Of a stretch of DNA of 64,000 bases, positions 34,134 to 58,294 are shown one piece after another. A program made the position numbers and the translations under genes. The notes beneath the pieces are model-generated. The model was not told where the DNA came from, did no database searches, and saw nothing but the letters and a program-made list of their open reading frames with translations. Origin of the DNA: Chloroflexota bacterium (GTDB lineage Bacteria > Chloroflexota > Limnocylindria > P2-11E); contig JACQAT010000019.1 in NCBI GenBank assembly GCA_016194865.1, positions 1 to 64,000 on the forward strand, given 5' to 3'. Numbering within the stretch: the stretch's first letter is position 1; every line of letters begins with the position of its first letter.

Positions 34134-36154
34134 CACCGCTGGCATGGGCCGGCGACGCCGGCGCGGGCGCCCTGCGCGCCGCATTGCCACTGGCGCTGGC
34201 CGGGCTGGTCGCGGCCGCATATGCGGCGCGCACGCGCGACGCGCGCCTGCTGTCGAGCGCGCGCTGGTGCGCGCTCGTCGCGTTCGCGCTCGTCGTCATC
34301 GCCGACCTCGCGATGGTGGCGGCGCTCGTCACGCACGACTTCTCGCTGCGCTACGTGGCCGACAACAACGCGCGCGAGACGCCGCTGTTCTACTCGGCCA
34401 TCTCGCTGTGGGCGGCGCTCGAGGGCTCGATCCTCCTATGGGCCGCGATCCTCTCGGGAGCGACCGCGTACGTGGCCTGGCGCGGGACGCGCGCGATGCC
34501 GCGGCTCGCGACGACGGCGCTCGCGGTGTGCTTCGCGATGCTCGCGTTCTTCCTCGCGCTCGTGGTGACGGCCGCCGATCCGTTCACCCGGCTCGCACAG
34601 AGCGAGATCCCGGACAACGGACGCGGCCCCAACGCGCTGCTGCAGAACCACCCGCTCATGGCCCTGCATCCGCCGCTTCTCTACCTCGGCTACGTCCTCG
34701 CGGCGGTCCCCTTCGCGTACGCGATGGCCTCGCTCATCCTGGGCGAGGCCGGCGATCGCTGGCTCGTCGCGACCCGTCGCTTCGCGCTGGTGTCCTGGGC
34801 GCTCCTCGGCGTCGGCATCGTCGCCGGCGCGTGGTGGTCGTACGCGGTGCTCGGCTGGGGCGGCTATTGGGCGTGGGACCCGGTCGAGAACGCGGCGATC
34901 ATGCCGTGGCTCACGGCGACCGCGTACCTCCACTCGGTCATGGTCGAGGAGAAGCGGCGCCTGCTGCGCATGTGGAACGTCTCGCTCGTGATCGCGACCT
35001 TCGCGCTCACGATCCTCGGCACGTTCCTCACCCGCAGCGGCGTGGTCAACTCGGTCCACGCGTTCACTCAATCGGCCATCGGCCCGCTGTTCCTCGCCTA
35101 CCTCACGGCGATCCTCGTCTTCGGCATCGGACTGCTGCTGTGGCGGGCGCGATCGCTGACGGACGCGGGGACGATCGGAGCGCCGCTGTCGCGCGAGGCC
35201 ATCTTCCTGTTCCAGAACGTGCTCTTCGTCGCCGCCACGCTCACGGTGCTGCTCGGGACGCTCTACCCGCTCATCGCGGAGGCGCTCACGGGCGCGCAGC
35301 TCTCGATCGGCGCGCCGTACTTCGACCGCGTCGAGGTCCCGCTCGTGCTCGCCCTGCTGTTCCTCATGGGGATCGGCCCGCAGCTGCCGTGGCACGGCGC
35401 GTCGCGCGCGACCCTGGAGCGCCAGCTCACGGTCCCGCTCGTGTGTGCCGCGCTGGGCGCGTTCGTCGCGCTGCTCGCCGGCCTCGACGGGGTCGCGCCG
35501 GTGTTGACCATCGCGCTCGCGTCGTTCGTCACGGCGACGATCGGCCAGGAGGTGGCGCGTGGCGTGCGCGCCAGGCGCGCGTTGCACGGTGAACAGACGG
35601 CGACCGCCTTCGCGAACCTCTTCCTGCGCAACGGCCGCCGCTACGGCGGCTACGTCGTGCATCTCGGGATCGTCCTCGTCGCCATCGCGGTCGCGGTGAG
35701 CCAGGCAAAGACCGTCGAAGCGGAGCGGACGCTGTCACCGGGCGGCTCGCTCGTCGCCGCCGGTTACACGATCACCCTCGACACGATCCGCGACGTGAAC
35801 GAGCCGCAGCGCTCGCTGACCGTCGCGGACCTCACGATCACCGGGAACGGCGCGAGCGAGCGATCGCGCCCCGCGCTGGTCCGCTACCCGAACACGCTGC
35901 AGGCGATCGGCTCGCCGGGGATCGCCGCCGGAATGCGGGACGACATCTACACGATCCTCGTCGCGTACGACGGGCGCGCGCAGACGTGGGCGACGGTCCG
36001 CGTCCGCGTGATCCCGCTCGTCTCATGGCTCTGGGTGGGCGGCGGAGTGGTCGGGCTCGGCGCGATCATCAGCGCGCTGCCGCCCGCGAAGCGACGCGCG
36101 CGGCGCGAGCTGGCGGTGCCCGTCCCTGCGGGAGCCGATCGATGGCCCGCGTGA
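34130..36154 (+). CDS. ccmF: Heme lyase CcmF
   Basis: WGGYWAWDPVENAAIMPWL WWD domain. Confidence 0.97.
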   Translation: MTPLAWAGDAGAGALRAALPLALAGLVAAAYAARTRDARLLSSARWCALVAFALVVIADLAMVAALVTHDFSLRYVADNNARETPLFYSAISLWAALEGSILLWAAILSGATAYVAWRGTRAMPRLATTALAVCFAMLAFFLALVVTAADPFTRLAQSEIPDNGRGPNALLQNHPLMALHPPLLYLGYVLAAVPFAYAMASLILGEAGDRWLVATRRFALVSWALLGVGIVAGAWWSYAVLGWGGYWAWDPVENAAIMPWLTATAYLHSVMVEEKRRLLRMWNVSLVIATFALTILGTFLTRSGVVNSVHAFTQSAIGPLFLAYLTAILVFGIGLLLWRARSLTDAGTIGAPLSREAIFLFQNVLFVAATLTVLLGTLYPLIAEALTGAQLSIGAPYFDRVEVPLVLALLFLMGIGPQLPWHGASRATLERQLTVPLVCAALGAFVALLAGLDGVAPVLTIALASFVTATIGQEVARGVRARRALHGEQTATAFANLFLRNGRRYGGYVVHLGIVLVAIAVAVSQAKTVEAERTLSPGGSLVAAGYTITLDTIRDVNEPQRSLTVADLTITGNGASERSRPALVRYPNTLQAIGSPGIAAGMRDDIYTILVAYDGRAQTWATVRVRVIPLVSWLWVGGGVVGLGAIISALPPAKRRARRELAVPVPAGADRWPA

Positions 36155-36681
36155 TCCGCTACGCGCCGCTCGTCCTGGTCGCCGGCGTGATCGTCGTGCT
36201 CGCCGTCGCGTTCCGGTACGACCCTCACGACGTGCGCAGCGCCGCGGTCGGCAAGCCCGCGCCCGCCTTCTCGCTGGAGGCCCTCGAGGGCGGCGGCCGC
36301 ATCGACCTCGCGTCGTACCGGGGCAAGGTCGTCGTCGTGAACTTCTTCGCGTCGTGGTGCGTGCCGTGCCGGCAGGAGCACGCCGCGCTGGCCAACGCGT
36401 GGACGCGCTACGGCGGCAGCGGCGTGGTGCTCATCGGCGTGCTCTATCAGGACGACCCGAGCAGCGGCCGCGAGTTCATGCGGCGGCTCGGTGGCGGCTG
36501 GCCGACCGCCATCGATGAGGACGGCCGCGTCGCGCTGTCGTTCGGGGTCTTCGGGATCCCCGAGACGTTCTTCATCGGACCAGACGGCATCATCGCGGGC
36601 CGTCACATCGGCCCCATCGACGAAGCCACGCTCGCGACGGGGATCGACGCGCTGCGGCGCGCGTCGTTGAGCCCGCCGTGA
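36142..36681 (+). CDS. TlpA/CcmG-like thiol-disulfide protein
   Basis: VVVNFFASWCVPCRQEHAAL; VFGIPETFFI. Confidence 0.92.
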   Translation: MARVIRYAPLVLVAGVIVVLAVAFRYDPHDVRSAAVGKPAPAFSLEALEGGGRIDLASYRGKVVVVNFFASWCVPCRQEHAALANAWTRYGGSGVVLIGVLYQDDPSSGREFMRRLGGGWPTAIDEDGRVALSFGVFGIPETFFIGPDGIIAGRHIGPIDEATLATGIDALRRASLSPP

Positions 36682-37139
36682 CGCGGACCCGGGTCGCGCT
36701 CCTCCTCGCCGTCATCGCGATCGCCTGCGCGCTGGCGCTCGCGGCCCGGGCGCCCGCGCCGACGAACGAAGCGCGCGCCGACCGGCTCGCCGAAGAGCTG
36801 CGCTGCCCGGTCTGCCAGGGACTTTCGGTGCGCGACTCGCCGTCTGAGACGGCGCGCCAGATGCGCGAGCTCGCGGCGCAGCGGGTCGCGGAGGGCCGCA
36901 ACGACGACCAGATCCGTGACGAGTTCCGCGCTTCGTACGGCGACTGGGTGCTCCTCGCGCCGCCGCTCCTCGCGTGGAGCGGCCTCGTCTGGGTCGTTCC
37001 GTTCGCGCTCGTGGTGCTGGGCTTCGTGCTCGCGGGCGGCCTGTTGCGACGCCGTCAGGTCTCCGAGGCGGCGCCGACGGCCGCCCAGCTCGCGACGCTT
37101 CGCGAGCGCGTCGCGAACGACCCGGGCGTGTACGAGTGA
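36678..37139 (+). CDS. ccmH: Cytochrome c biogenesis protein CcmH
   Basis: LRCPVCQGLSVRDSPSETARQMR. Confidence 0.93.
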   Translation: MTRTRVALLLAVIAIACALALAARAPAPTNEARADRLAEELRCPVCQGLSVRDSPSETARQMRELAAQRVAEGRNDDQIRDEFRASYGDWVLLAPPLLAWSGLVWVVPFALVVLGFVLAGGLLRRRQVSEAAPTAAQLATLRERVANDPGVYE

Positions 37140-37939
37140 CCACGCTCGTCGTGTTCGCCGTCGCGCTCGCGATCGGCGGCTTCCTCGCGTTCCGGCCGCT
37201 CCTGGGAACCGCGCGGCCGTGGCCCAGCGATCCCGCCGACCAGCGCGATGACATCGAGCGGGCGGTCTCGTCGCTTCGCGATCTCGAGTTCGCGCGCGCG
37301 GCCGGCACCATCGATCCGCGCGATGCGGTGCGGCTGCGCGCGATCCTCGAGCGCGGCGCGTTCGCGACGCGACCGACACCCGCCGCAGGCGGTGCGCCGG
37401 TGCGCACGCTGATCGTCGGCGCGCTGCTCGCGGCGATCGCGGCGGTCCTCGTCGCGGCGTACCTGCCGCGCGCCGCGGGCGATCGCGCGCCGGGCACCAC
37501 CATCACGGGCACGCTGCCACGTGGGGCGCCGACGACCGCCGAGCTCGAGGCGCGCGCGGCCGCGAGCCCGAACGACGTCCCGACGCTGCTCGCCCTGGCC
37601 GACGCGTATCGCGACGACCAGCGCGCGAGCGACGCAGCGAGCGTCTACCGCCGCGTGCTGGCCATCGATCGCGACAACGTCCCGGCGCTCTATGGCGTCG
37701 CGCTGATCCTCTTCCGCTCCGGTGAGCCAGAGGGCGCGCGCCTCGCGAACGACCGAGTGCTGGCGCTGCGGCCGCGCGATACCGACGCCCTGTTCCTGGG
37801 CGGTCTCATCCGCTACCAAAAGGCGGACTACAATGGAGCGGTGGAGCTGTGGAACATCTACCTCGACGTTGGTGAGTTCCACCCCGCGTTCCCGATGGTC
37901 AAGCAGCTGTACGACGACGCGAAGCGGAAGGGTAGCTGA
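37136..37939 (+). CDS. TPR protein (CcmI-like)
   Basis: GTGA overlap with ccmH; two TMs then TPR repeats. Confidence 0.8.
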   Translation: MTTLVVFAVALAIGGFLAFRPLLGTARPWPSDPADQRDDIERAVSSLRDLEFARAAGTIDPRDAVRLRAILERGAFATRPTPAAGGAPVRTLIVGALLAAIAAVLVAAYLPRAAGDRAPGTTITGTLPRGAPTTAELEARAAASPNDVPTLLALADAYRDDQRASDAASVYRRVLAIDRDNVPALYGVALILFRSGEPEGARLANDRVLALRPRDTDALFLGGLIRYQKADYNGAVELWNIYLDVGEFHPAFPMVKQLYDDAKRKGS

Positions 37940-37943
37940 GCGC

Positions 37944-38043
37944 TACGGGGCGGCCGTACGAAGTACGGGGCGGCCGTACGAAGTACGGGGCGGCCGTACG
38001 AAGTACGGGGCGGCCGTACGAAGTACGGGGCGGCCGTACGAAG
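37944..38043. repeat. Tandem repeat, 5 x 20 bp, each a hairpin (GTACGG-GGCGG-CCGTAC-GAA)
   Basis: Five perfect TACGGGGCGGCCGTACGAAG units, a sixth degenerate copy being the tRNA-His 3' end. Confidence 0.98.
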
Positions 38044-38048
38044 TACGG

Positions 38049-38120
38049 GGCGGCGTACGAGGATCGAACTCGTCTAACTGGATCCACAATCCAGGGCCTT
38101 GCCACTAGGCTAACGCCGCC
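38049..38120 (-). tRNA. tRNA-His(GTG)
   Basis: GGCGGCGTTAGCCTAGTGGCAAGGCCCTGGATTGTGGATCCAGTTAGACGAGTTCGATCCTCGTACGCCGCC; G-1:C73 pair; CCA not encoded. Confidence 0.95.
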
Positions 38121-38159
38121 GCGACGCGAACCCGATGTTCGCAGCGTCATTCTAGTGCG

Positions 38160-39863
38160 CTAGTCGCCGCGACCCTTCTGCACGCGATCCAGGATGCCGC
38201 GGATGCGATCACGGATGCGATCGTTGTTGTCGTCGGAGTCCTTGCCCTTGTCGGCGGCCTTTTCGTTGCCCTTGCCGTTCTGCGGCGCGTCCTTCTTTGG
38301 AGCGGCCTCCTTCACGGGCGCCGCCTCTTTCACGGGCGCCGCTTCCTTCGCAGGGGCCGCCTCCTTCGCGGGCGCCGCTTCCTTCGCGGGCGCCGCTTCC
38401 TTCGCGGGCGCCGCTTCCTTCGCGGGAGCGGGAGCCTCTTTCACGGCCGACCTTCCCGCATTGTCCTTTGATGCGTTCGGGACATTGAACTCGATCGGAT
38501 TCGGCAGGAACCCGCCCGCGCCGCGACCGGGGTCGCCGCCGCTGGGCGGTCGTCCCGGGCCGTTGTCCGACTTCTTCTCGCTCTGCTTCTGTTTGTCGCT
38601 CGCGGCACTCTCAGAGGCCTTCTTGGCGTCGTCGACCTTCTTCGCGGCATCGTCCGCGTCCGCGGAGATCTGCGCGGGGGTGCCGTTCGTCGTCGGCTCG
38701 GTCTTCGTCGTGTCGGCGGCCTTCTGCTCGTTCGACGTCGTCCGGCTGTTGGTATTCGCCTCCTGGTTCGAGCTGCCGGTCCTGGTGCTCGCGCTGGACG
38801 TCGTCCCGTCCTTTGTGGCGCTCGTGACCGGCGAAGCGACCTTCGCGTCCGGGAGCGCCTTCTTCTCGGAGTCGCTGACGGCGCGAAGGACCGCGGACGA
38901 TGATCCGTCGCCCTTCCTGACCTCGTTGACCTCGACGCCGCTCACGGCCTTCGCCGTGTCGGCGTTGATCTTCACGGACTCGGTGACCCTGACCGCGTCC
39001 TTGCCCTTCTCCCGCACGACGGTCACGACCTCGACGGTGTCGTCCGACTTGTTGTGTTTGTCGGACACCGTCGCGACCTTGCCATCGGGGAGATCGGGCA
39101 TCGTCACCACGATCTTCCCGTTCTCGGTGGAGACCTTGGCACCCGGCGTCTGGACGATGACCTTGCCATCCTTGACGCCGTTCGACCTGCCGAGCGGGTC
39201 GATCACGAGCGAGCTCGAGGAGTCGACCGTGACGGTGTGGGTGCGCTGTGGCGCGGGCGCGACCTTCGGAGGCTCCGGCGCGGTGTCCTTCCTGACCGTC
39301 GTCTGGAGGCCCTGGGTGACGAGCACCTCGGTCGTCTTCGCGCTGTCGGCGGTCGCGACGCGACCCTCCGTTGTCGTGACCGTGGTGGTCTGATCCTCGG
39401 CGACATCGATCTGGAACGCGGTGCCGCGCACCGACGCGGTGGAGACCGGGGTCTTCACGTCGTAGCGCGAGCCAGGCGTCAGCAGATGGGTGACGACATG
39501 CCACGTGCGGCCGAGGTTCTGTGTCATGAGGATGACGGTCGAGCCGTCCGGACGAGCCGAGGCATCGTCGATCGCCAGCTCGCTGGCGGGCTCGATCTCG
39601 ACGGTGGAGCCTTCGAAGTAGGTGATGACGGCACGGGCGTCCGGATCGGTGCGGACGGTGTCACCCGGTGCGATGAAGTCCCCGTCCTGTGCCTCGACGA
39701 ACTCGCCGCCCGCGTGTCTGATGAAGACGGTCCCGCCGACGATGGTGATCGTGGAGGAGGCGCCGAGCGCGACGTTCCCGCCGCGTGGGCCCAGGATGCC
39801 GGTGGCCGCAAGGACGAGCGAGAGGATGAAGGCCGTGGCGACGACGCCAACAGCCGGTCGCAT
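38160..39863 (-). CDS. FecR-domain protein with Pro/Ala/Lys-rich C-terminal repeats
   Basis: FecR-like (DGDFIAPGDTVRTDPDARAVITYFEGSTVEI, TPVSTASVRGTAFQI); (APAKEA)n. Confidence 0.85.
   Translation of the reverse strand: MRPAVGVVATAFILSLVLAATGILGPRGGNVALGASSTITIVGGTVFIRHAGGEFVEAQDGDFIAPGDTVRTDPDARAVITYFEGSTVEIEPASELAIDDASARPDGSTVILMTQNLGRTWHVVTHLLTPGSRYDVKTPVSTASVRGTAFQIDVAEDQTTTVTTTEGRVATADSAKTTEVLVTQGLQTTVRKDTAPEPPKVAPAPQRTHTVTVDSSSSLVIDPLGRSNGVKDGKVIVQTPGAKVSTENGKIVVTMPDLPDGKVATVSDKHNKSDDTVEVVTVVREKGKDAVRVTESVKINADTAKAVSGVEVNEVRKGDGSSSAVLRAVSDSEKKALPDAKVASPVTSATKDGTTSSASTRTGSSNQEANTNSRTTSNEQKAADTTKTEPTTNGTPAQISADADDAAKKVDDAKKASESAASDKQKQSEKKSDNGPGRPPSGGDPGRGAGGFLPNPIEFNVPNASKDNAGRSAVKEAPAPAKEAAPAKEAAPAKEAAPAKEAAPAKEAAPVKEAAPVKEAAPKKDAPQNGKGNEKAADKGKDSDDNNDRIRDRIRGILDRVQKGRGD
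38296..38440. repeat. 18-bp tandem repeat coding EAAPAK hexapeptides
   Basis: Seven or so units of ggcgccgcttccttcgcg in the FecR gene. Confidence 0.9.
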
Positions 39864-40026
39864 GCGAGATCCCTGCACTAGCCCTGAGCCCCCCACCAAA
39901 AGAGTCAACGCGAGTATCGGGTCGACGGTCCGGTCGGCGGGCGACTATGTGGTCTCAAACGGGTTGCATCAGGTCAATTTGCCGACACATGTGACGCGAG
40001 ACACAGGCGTTCGGACGCGTGCTCGC

Positions 40027-40491
40027 TCACTCCCGCGGGGGTGAGTACTCGGACAGCGCGACGAGGAACGGGCGGCTGCGGCCGGGCTGGATCGTCAGCG
40101 GCTCGCTCTGCCCTTCCCGTGCGAAGACGGGGACGCGCAGCCCATGCAACCGCTGGGTGCGTTTTTGCCACACGGACCCGTCCACCGGGCAGCGGAACGG
40201 GCCGTCGCCGAGCCGTTCCCCGTACGCGAGCAGCAGCTTCGCGCAGCAGCGCTCCACGTTGGGCTCGTGACCGTCGGCCGAGGCCAGATACGGGAACTCG
40301 GCCTCGGGCCCGCGCCGGCTGCGCAGCTGGAACTCGCGACCGTCGGCCCTGCGGTACGCGCCCTTCGCGGTCTTCGTCCACTCGGTCGCGTCCTCCGGAC
40401 ATGCGAACGCCTGGCCAACGGCGTAGAAGCCGCCCCAGTCGATGATCCAGTCCTCGCAGCAGTCGGCGAGGATCACGCGCTCTTCGCTCAT
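40027..40491 (-). CDS. Uncharacterised Cys-rich protein with two CC...CP..D modules
   Basis: CCEDWIIDWGGFYAVGQAFACPEDATEWTKT / CCAKLLLAYGERLGDGPFRCPVDGSVWQKR. Confidence 0.7.
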   Translation of the reverse strand: MSEERVILADCCEDWIIDWGGFYAVGQAFACPEDATEWTKTAKGAYRRADGREFQLRSRRGPEAEFPYLASADGHEPNVERCCAKLLLAYGERLGDGPFRCPVDGSVWQKRTQRLHGLRVPVFAREGQSEPLTIQPGRSRPFLVALSEYSPPRE

Positions 40492-40495
40492 GCGC

Positions 40496-41440
40496 TCATG
40501 CGACCTGACCACCAGCCGCGGGCGCTGCAAGGAGCCAGCACAGGAGTGCCTTCAGCACGTGCATCTTGTTCTCGGCCTGATCGAAGACCACGCTCCGCGG
40601 GCCATCGAGCACCTCGTCGGTGATCTCCTCGCCTCGATGGGCCGGCAGGTCGTGCATCACGACCGCGTCCGGCTTGGCCTTGGCCAAGAGCGCGGCGTTC
40701 AGCTGGAAGCCCTGGAACGCGCGACGGCGACGTTCGTACTCCTGCTCCTGACCCATGCTCGTCCACACATCGGTGTACACGACGTCCGCGTCGCGCACCG
40801 CCGCGGCCGGATCGTTGCCGATCTCGATCCGCGCCCCGCTCTCCCTGGCGGCCTGCTGCGCGAGCTCGCGGTAGCGCGCGAGCGGCTCGAAGCCGGCGGG
40901 CGACGCGATACGCAGCGTGAGGCCGGTCTTCGCCGCGCAAAGCATCAGCGAGTGCGCGACGTTGTTGCCGTCGCCGACGTACGCGGCCGTCACCTTCCTC
41001 AGATCGCCCTTGCGCTCGCGGATGGTGAAGATGTCGGCCAGCCCCTGACAGGGATGCGAGAGGTCGGAGAGCCCGTTGATCACCGGGATCGACGAGCTGC
41101 GCGCGAACTCCTCGATCGTCTCGTGCGCGTGCGTGCGCAGGACGACGACGTCGACGAGCCGGCTCACGACCCGCGCGACATCGGCGACGCTCTCCCGGCG
41201 CCCGAGGCCGACCTCCTGCGGCGAGAGGTACGAGCTGTGCCCGCCGAGCTCGACCATCGCCATATCGAAGGACAGGCGCGTGCGCAGGCTCGGCTTCTCG
41301 AAGATCTGCGCGAGCGACCGGCCGCGCAGCGGCGTCCCCGCCGACCGCCGGTCGCGTTTCATGGCCGCCGCGCGCTCGAGCAGCGCCGCGAGCTCGGCCG
41401 ACTGTAAATCTGCGATCGAGATGAAGCTGCGGACGCTCAT
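40496..41440 (-). CDS. argF: Ornithine carbamoyltransferase
   Basis: FEKPSLRTRLSFDMAMVELGGHSSYL; HPCQGLADIFT; MHDLPAHRGEEI. Confidence 0.95.
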   Translation of the reverse strand: MSVRSFISIADLQSAELAALLERAAAMKRDRRSAGTPLRGRSLAQIFEKPSLRTRLSFDMAMVELGGHSSYLSPQEVGLGRRESVADVARVVSRLVDVVVLRTHAHETIEEFARSSSIPVINGLSDLSHPCQGLADIFTIRERKGDLRKVTAAYVGDGNNVAHSLMLCAAKTGLTLRIASPAGFEPLARYRELAQQAARESGARIEIGNDPAAAVRDADVVYTDVWTSMGQEQEYERRRRAFQGFQLNAALLAKAKPDAVVMHDLPAHRGEEITDEVLDGPRSVVFDQAENKMHVLKALLCWLLAAPAAGGQVA

Positions 41441-58197: not shown

Positions 58198-58294
58198 TGG
58201 CGAGAGTGCATGGGAGTCGAACCCACCACGGAACGTTCTACGCCCCGTCAGCGGTTTTGAAGACCGAGGCCTGCACCGGCAGACGCGCACTCTC
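58198..58294 (-). tRNA. selC: tRNA-Sec(TCA)
   Basis: 8-bp acceptor GAGAGTGC/GCACTCTC, 6-bp D stem with CGGT loop, loop CTTCAAA (anticodon TCA), long variable arm, 5-bp T stem, GCCA encoded. Confidence 0.95.

Follow-up and report, generated by a model that had tools for sequence, protein, structure and literature searches.

A tandem array of 20-bp hairpin repeats adjoining a tRNA-His gene in a Chloroflexota genome, probably seeded by the 3' end of the tRNA

The window analyzed here, a 64-kb stretch of a Chloroflexota genome, contains a tRNA-His gene with the anticodon GTG (minus strand, 38049-38120; G-1 to C73), which is identified by ARAGORN (38047-38119), by Rfam (RF00005, 58.8 bits) and by its fold. 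It is convergent with a ccmI-like gene encoding a TPR domain (plus strand, 37136-37939), which closes a cluster of the order ccmF, a thioredoxin-like gene, ccmH and ccmI; this gene is recognized by its neighbors, CcmH and CcmF, and by Pfam matches of its product to TPR_19 (6.9e-7) and TPR_CcmH_CycH (2.3e-6, under the curated cut-off for that model). Upstream of the tRNA-His gene and on the same strand lies an open reading frame for a FecR-domain protein (minus strand, 38160-39908; Pfam PF04773, 2e-9). A promoter scan of the region upstream of tRNA-His gave no matches; a possible -10 element, TAGAAT (minus strand, 38149-38154), is weak and lacks a matching -35 element. The FecR-domain gene contains a coding tandem repeat of its own (38308-38426; 18 bp, 6.6 copies, 90% matches), located 250 bp from the array described below, which encodes AAPAKE repeats toward the C terminus of the protein. 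In most of the tRNA genes of this genome the discriminator base precedes only part of CCA (CA, C or CC, and then G); one, that for tRNA-Val, encodes the full CCA. ARAGORN also detects a tRNA-SeC gene at 58198-58294 of the window, and the organism may therefore use selenocysteine.

The space between the convergent ccmI and tRNA-His genes is occupied by a tandem array, which begins 4 bp after the ccmI stop codon and which Tandem Repeats Finder (TRF) delimits at 37944-38060, with a period of 20, 5.9 copies, 98% matches and a score of 227. Numbered from the tRNA outward, and read on the minus strand as the tRNA is, the repeat units are located at 38024-38043 (unit 1, which adjoins tRNA-His), 38004-38023 (unit 2), 37984-38003 (unit 3), 37964-37983 (unit 4) and 37944-37963 (unit 5). 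An imperfect sixth copy that lacks one G (minus strand, 38044-38060) is delineated by the TRF boundary and by in-phase alignment, and is composed of the trailer CCGTA and the last 12 nucleotides of tRNA-His, comprising the 3' strand of the T-stem, the 3' strand of the acceptor stem and C73. The number of perfect units depends on the register. On the plus strand, TACGGGGCGGCCGTACGAAG is present in five perfect 20-bp copies (37944-38043), but in the register read with the tRNA, TTCGTACGGCCGCCCCGTAC, only four units are perfect and unit 5 deviates in its final base. The initial annotation had described five perfect units in the tRNA-sense register; this count is exact in the plus-strand register only, because the farthest unit, nearest to ccmI, ends in G where the others have C, so that its outer stem base is altered (C, not G, at 37943).

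The 20-nucleotide periodicity extends into the tRNA-His gene by 12-13 nucleotides, and it is the 3' end of the gene that forms the imperfect copy. In the sense of the tRNA, the gene ends in CTCGTACGCCGCC, followed by the trailer CCGTAC. Relative to this end the repeat unit has one inserted G (ACG-CCGCC to ACGGCCGCC) and a change of C to T at its start (CTCGT to TTCGT). Apart from the matter of register, the initial annotation located the repeats and described their structure correctly; its claim that 20-bp repeats copy the 3' end of tRNA-His and abut the gene is borne out by TRF, ARAGORN and the in-phase alignment. That five exact copies exceed chance is self-evident, and it is the link to the tRNA that calls for a statistical comparison. 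An unanchored match of similar quality, anywhere in tRNA-His, is equalled by about 1% of the 20-mers of the window, but only 10 of its 127,908 14-mers match the tRNA as well in phase and anchored at the end, and it is because of the rarity of the latter that, from sequence comparison, the array and the tRNA-His 3' end very probably share descent. No copy of the repeat unit was found elsewhere in the assembly, and a search that allowed up to three mismatches returned the array and a single site with three mismatches. A dispersed palindromic repeat of the REP or BIME type was considered and rejected, since copies at many genomic sites were not found.

Each unit can form the hairpin GTACGG-CCGCC-CCGTAC, with a 6-bp stem and a loop of 5, as originally reported. 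Its predicted energy is -6.4 kcal/mol as RNA and -4.5 kcal/mol as DNA; the tRNA version, without the extra G, has a predicted energy of -3.4 kcal/mol as compared with the -6.4 kcal/mol of the version that contains it. On either strand, the array as a whole is predicted to fold more stably than its dinucleotide-shuffled counterparts (z of -2.45 and -4.32). The predicted cloverleaf of tRNA-His is intact and is retained when the tRNA and the array are folded together, the acceptor pair probability being 0.97 with 0 to 7 units. It was also considered that the extra G shields tRNA folding from competition by exact copies, but this is unconvincing, as with hypothetical exact copies the predicted acceptor pairing is still 0.94-0.97, compared with 0.97. 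An Rfam cmscan of 36000-41000 gave the tRNA and a sub-threshold chance match, with no rtT RNA.

Comparison of the locus in relatives, which the initial annotation had proposed, was made in a family set of 28 genomes in which one genome represents the genus and a ccmI match is recognizable in 25. In the present genome the gap between ccmI and tRNA-His is 107 bp, and subtraction of five 20-bp units leaves 7 bp. Seven other genomes of the family have the same convergent order, with gaps of 9, 11, 11, 23, 27, 28 and 28 bp, and the array is absent from the junction in all seven; it is likewise absent in several further relatives in which tRNA-His follows ccmI on the same strand. The closest matches to CcmF in the named genome collection are from Chloroflexota metagenome-assembled genomes (MAGs) (70-81% identity), which in itself points only to the probable phylum; among these best matches the array is missing wherever the sequence extends over the junction (L027). 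A 26-nucleotide unit probe, with up to three mismatches, had no match in the 176 other genomes of the class among the 177 searched, and neither the exact probe nor the exact tRNA-His 3' end was found in viral contigs. None of the remaining tRNA genes of this genome has such an array. A series of near-identical short tandem units at a site whose orthologs in relatives are empty, as observed here, is the mark of a minisatellite (VNTR) generated by slippage.

On balance, the array is probably a young minisatellite that originated from the tRNA-His 3' end and grew by unequal recombination or replication slippage, and slippage amplification is the best fit among the four options offered in the initial annotation. 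From the observed end state and the empty sites observed in relatives, we infer a series of duplication stages. In the earliest of these, about 19 bp, consisting of the last 12-13 nucleotides of tRNA-His and the trailer CCGTA, would have been tandemly duplicated just outside the gene; examination of the endpoints of this duplication in the reconstructed ancestor gave no clear microhomology. The copy, released from the constraint on the tRNA, would then have acquired one G and the C-to-T change, lengthening the stem from 5 to 6 bp, whereas selection on the tRNA would have preserved the sequence of the copy within tRNA-His. The resulting 20-bp unit would have given rise to five identical copies through replication slippage or unequal recombination, and the self-complementarity of the hairpin repeats would help their expansion. 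The perfect identity of the units could instead be a product of selection or gene conversion. The array has the look of a recent error in the copying of DNA, not of a new system, and is probably neutral. As such, it represents a clean and apparently young case of tandem repeats seeded by a tRNA 3' end, in which the tRNA itself is the first copy and is held under constraint. The tandem-repeat background of the genome, as assessed over 452 kb that include the window, contains further arrays that are mostly short and imperfect. Two more perfect tandem repeats are present in it, one of 93 bp in 2.0 copies (G000:C7:10236-10419; L168) and one of 18 bp in 4.1 copies (G000:C9:42728-42801; L161).

Duplication of tRNA 3' ends was surveyed in 276 distinct tRNA genes of the fetched loci, mostly from this family, with neighboring tRNA genes masked and a second copy of the 3' end scored when it lay within 120 nucleotides downstream with an alignment score of 11 or more. 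Such copies follow five of the 276 genes as compared with an expectation of 0.4 when the downstream sequences were re-dealt (maximum of 3 in 200 trials), an excess that must be read cautiously because the sample is non-random and the genes are related. They comprise the tRNA-His gene described here, tRNA-Cys of genome G007, with a directly adjoining 16-nucleotide copy that also has one extra G (L255, 1480-1580), tRNA-Thr of the same genome (L257, 1501-1640), tRNA-Ala of G015, with an exact copy of 16 nucleotides at +20 (L405, 401-510), and tRNA-Arg of G015 (L404, 340-472). The survey therefore suggests that short duplication or displacement of tRNA 3' ends recurs modestly in the lineage; large amplification is seen only in tRNA-His. 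A more far-reaching proposal holds that short tandem duplication readily affects tRNA 3' ends in this lineage and that an added G, as in the tRNA-His units and similarly in the tRNA-Cys copy of G007, strengthens a hairpin in the copies, so that tail-derived RNAs or terminators arise de novo; it is in our view quite improbable. Copies of another type are associated with tRNA-Cys, whose 3' half (44-51 nucleotides) is found again at a distance of 7-22 kb, with contig and orientation the same, in several genomes of the family, with up to three copies per contig (G011:C83, 54000-64000, L345; G026:C132; G022:C19). In G011 a Phage_integrase gene adjoins tRNA-Cys. The tRNA-Cys gene is a hotspot for integration of the ordinary kind in this family, and some of the displaced 3' fragments may derive from such integration.

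A functional reading is suggested by the location of the array between convergent genes and by its strong self-structure, with hairpins on both strands: that it is a selected, bidirectional, multi-hairpin terminator or roadblock that parts the ccm and tRNA-His transcripts. Inspection of the junction sequences of the seven relatives discloses short palindromes or hairpins in three (L122, L128 and L144), but no hairpin is conserved across the seven, and relatives with the same gene order manage with spacers of 9-28 bp and no array. The single stems are only 6 bp long, there is no T-tract at the array, and no terminator-like site was found there on either strand. We consider a selected terminator unlikely. 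RNA transcribed through the array from either side would form hairpins and may slow convergent polymerases, so that the suggestion of a multi-hairpin terminator survives in a reduced form, in which termination of convergent transcripts is a possible by-product of the array; no sign of selection for an effect on convergent transcription was found. For rtT RNA, which belongs to tyrT of E. coli, a regulatory role has been proposed. In a similar manner the present array, which would be part of the transcript beyond tRNA-His in an architecture that resembles tyrTV/rtT, could give a processed tRNA-tail RNA or a decoy for tRNA 3' processing enzymes. However, its units carry the acceptor/T helix as the 3' strand alone, so that a tRNA-like minihelix is not possible, the array does not enter into the predicted tRNA fold at any copy number modeled, the array is not conserved, and Rfam has no match at the locus besides the tRNA. 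The chance that the array acts as a processing decoy, one of the possibilities raised initially, appears to be very slight; if its RNA did have a role, the locus would show the beginnings of tRNA-tail RNAs.

The occurrence of tRNA-integrating elements in the family, as seen at tRNA-Cys, and the enrichment of second 3'-end copies just downstream of tRNA genes (5 versus 0.4 expected) are compatible with an origin of the repeats from a mobile element that repeatedly integrated at the tRNA 3' end and was excised again, each unit being a scar that copies an attB-like site. Each excision leaves a single attB. Integration scars are disfavored because the present locus has five 20-bp copies that abut with nothing between them, unlike an excision product. 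There is also no integrase nearby, the sole PF00589 match of the assembly being on another contig (C10), ccmI directly adjoins the array, the exact sequence is missing from viral contigs, and the att-like tRNA-Cys repeats of the family are 44-51 nucleotides long and not 20. The earlier suggestion of integration or excision scars is thus unsupported and highly improbable; at most, a displaced tRNA fragment could have supplied the first copy. The assembly is a draft, 66% complete in 22 contigs and probably metagenomic, so that the array might be misassembled or its copy number in nature might be different. However, an array of about 117 bp fits within one ordinary read, the genes on either side of it are conserved and stand in the order expected, and misassembly would not generate the unit with the additional G; we regard an artefact as extremely improbable. 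Expansion of a minisatellite from the tRNA-His end is the reading that we prefer.

Among previously described systems, the attB and attL/attR repeats of tyrosine-recombinase elements resemble the array in being direct repeats of a tRNA 3' end, but they flank an element and are usually longer, as with the 44-51 nucleotides of the tRNA-Cys repeats of this family; the att repeat of Pseudomonas fluorescens PFGI-1 is 49 bp (PMC2647930). In the 16S-23S spacer of Clostridioides difficile that contains tRNA-Ala, slippage has been described at repeats beside the tRNA gene (PMC3090617). The two loci share short direct repeats that adjoin a tRNA gene and expansion without mobile-element machinery, but the C. 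difficile repeats are 9 bp long, are parted by spacers of 33 or 53 bp, and are not described as copies of the tRNA end (PMC3090617). A search of the literature for tandem arrays of tRNA ends in bacteria retrieved mostly mitochondrial cases.

The closest parallel is tyrTV/rtT (rttR) of E. coli, which also has direct tandem repeats immediately 3' of a tRNA gene, each holding a copy of the tRNA 3' end. Re-measured in E. coli K-12, the tyrTV repeat, which lies beyond tyrV, is 178 bp long and present in 3.1 copies, with exact 19-nucleotide tRNA-Tyr ends at +160, +338 and +516. The unit of the present array is 20 bp as opposed to 178 bp, and it contains 12 nucleotides of the tRNA with an inserted G in place of an exact 19-nucleotide copy. 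An annotated small RNA and the tpr reading frame are features of the E. coli locus, no sequence relation between the two was found, and the organisms belong to different phyla. Copy number can vary at loci of this type, as two genomes of Salmonella Paratyphi A differ by one rtT repeat (PMC2658671). The tRNA-His array is therefore of the same kind as tyrTV/rtT, although on a much smaller scale, and this kind was already known from E. coli. It provides a second architecture of the tyrTV/rtT kind, and its presence in a distant phylum suggests that arrays of this sort have independent origins in ordinary errors of replication.
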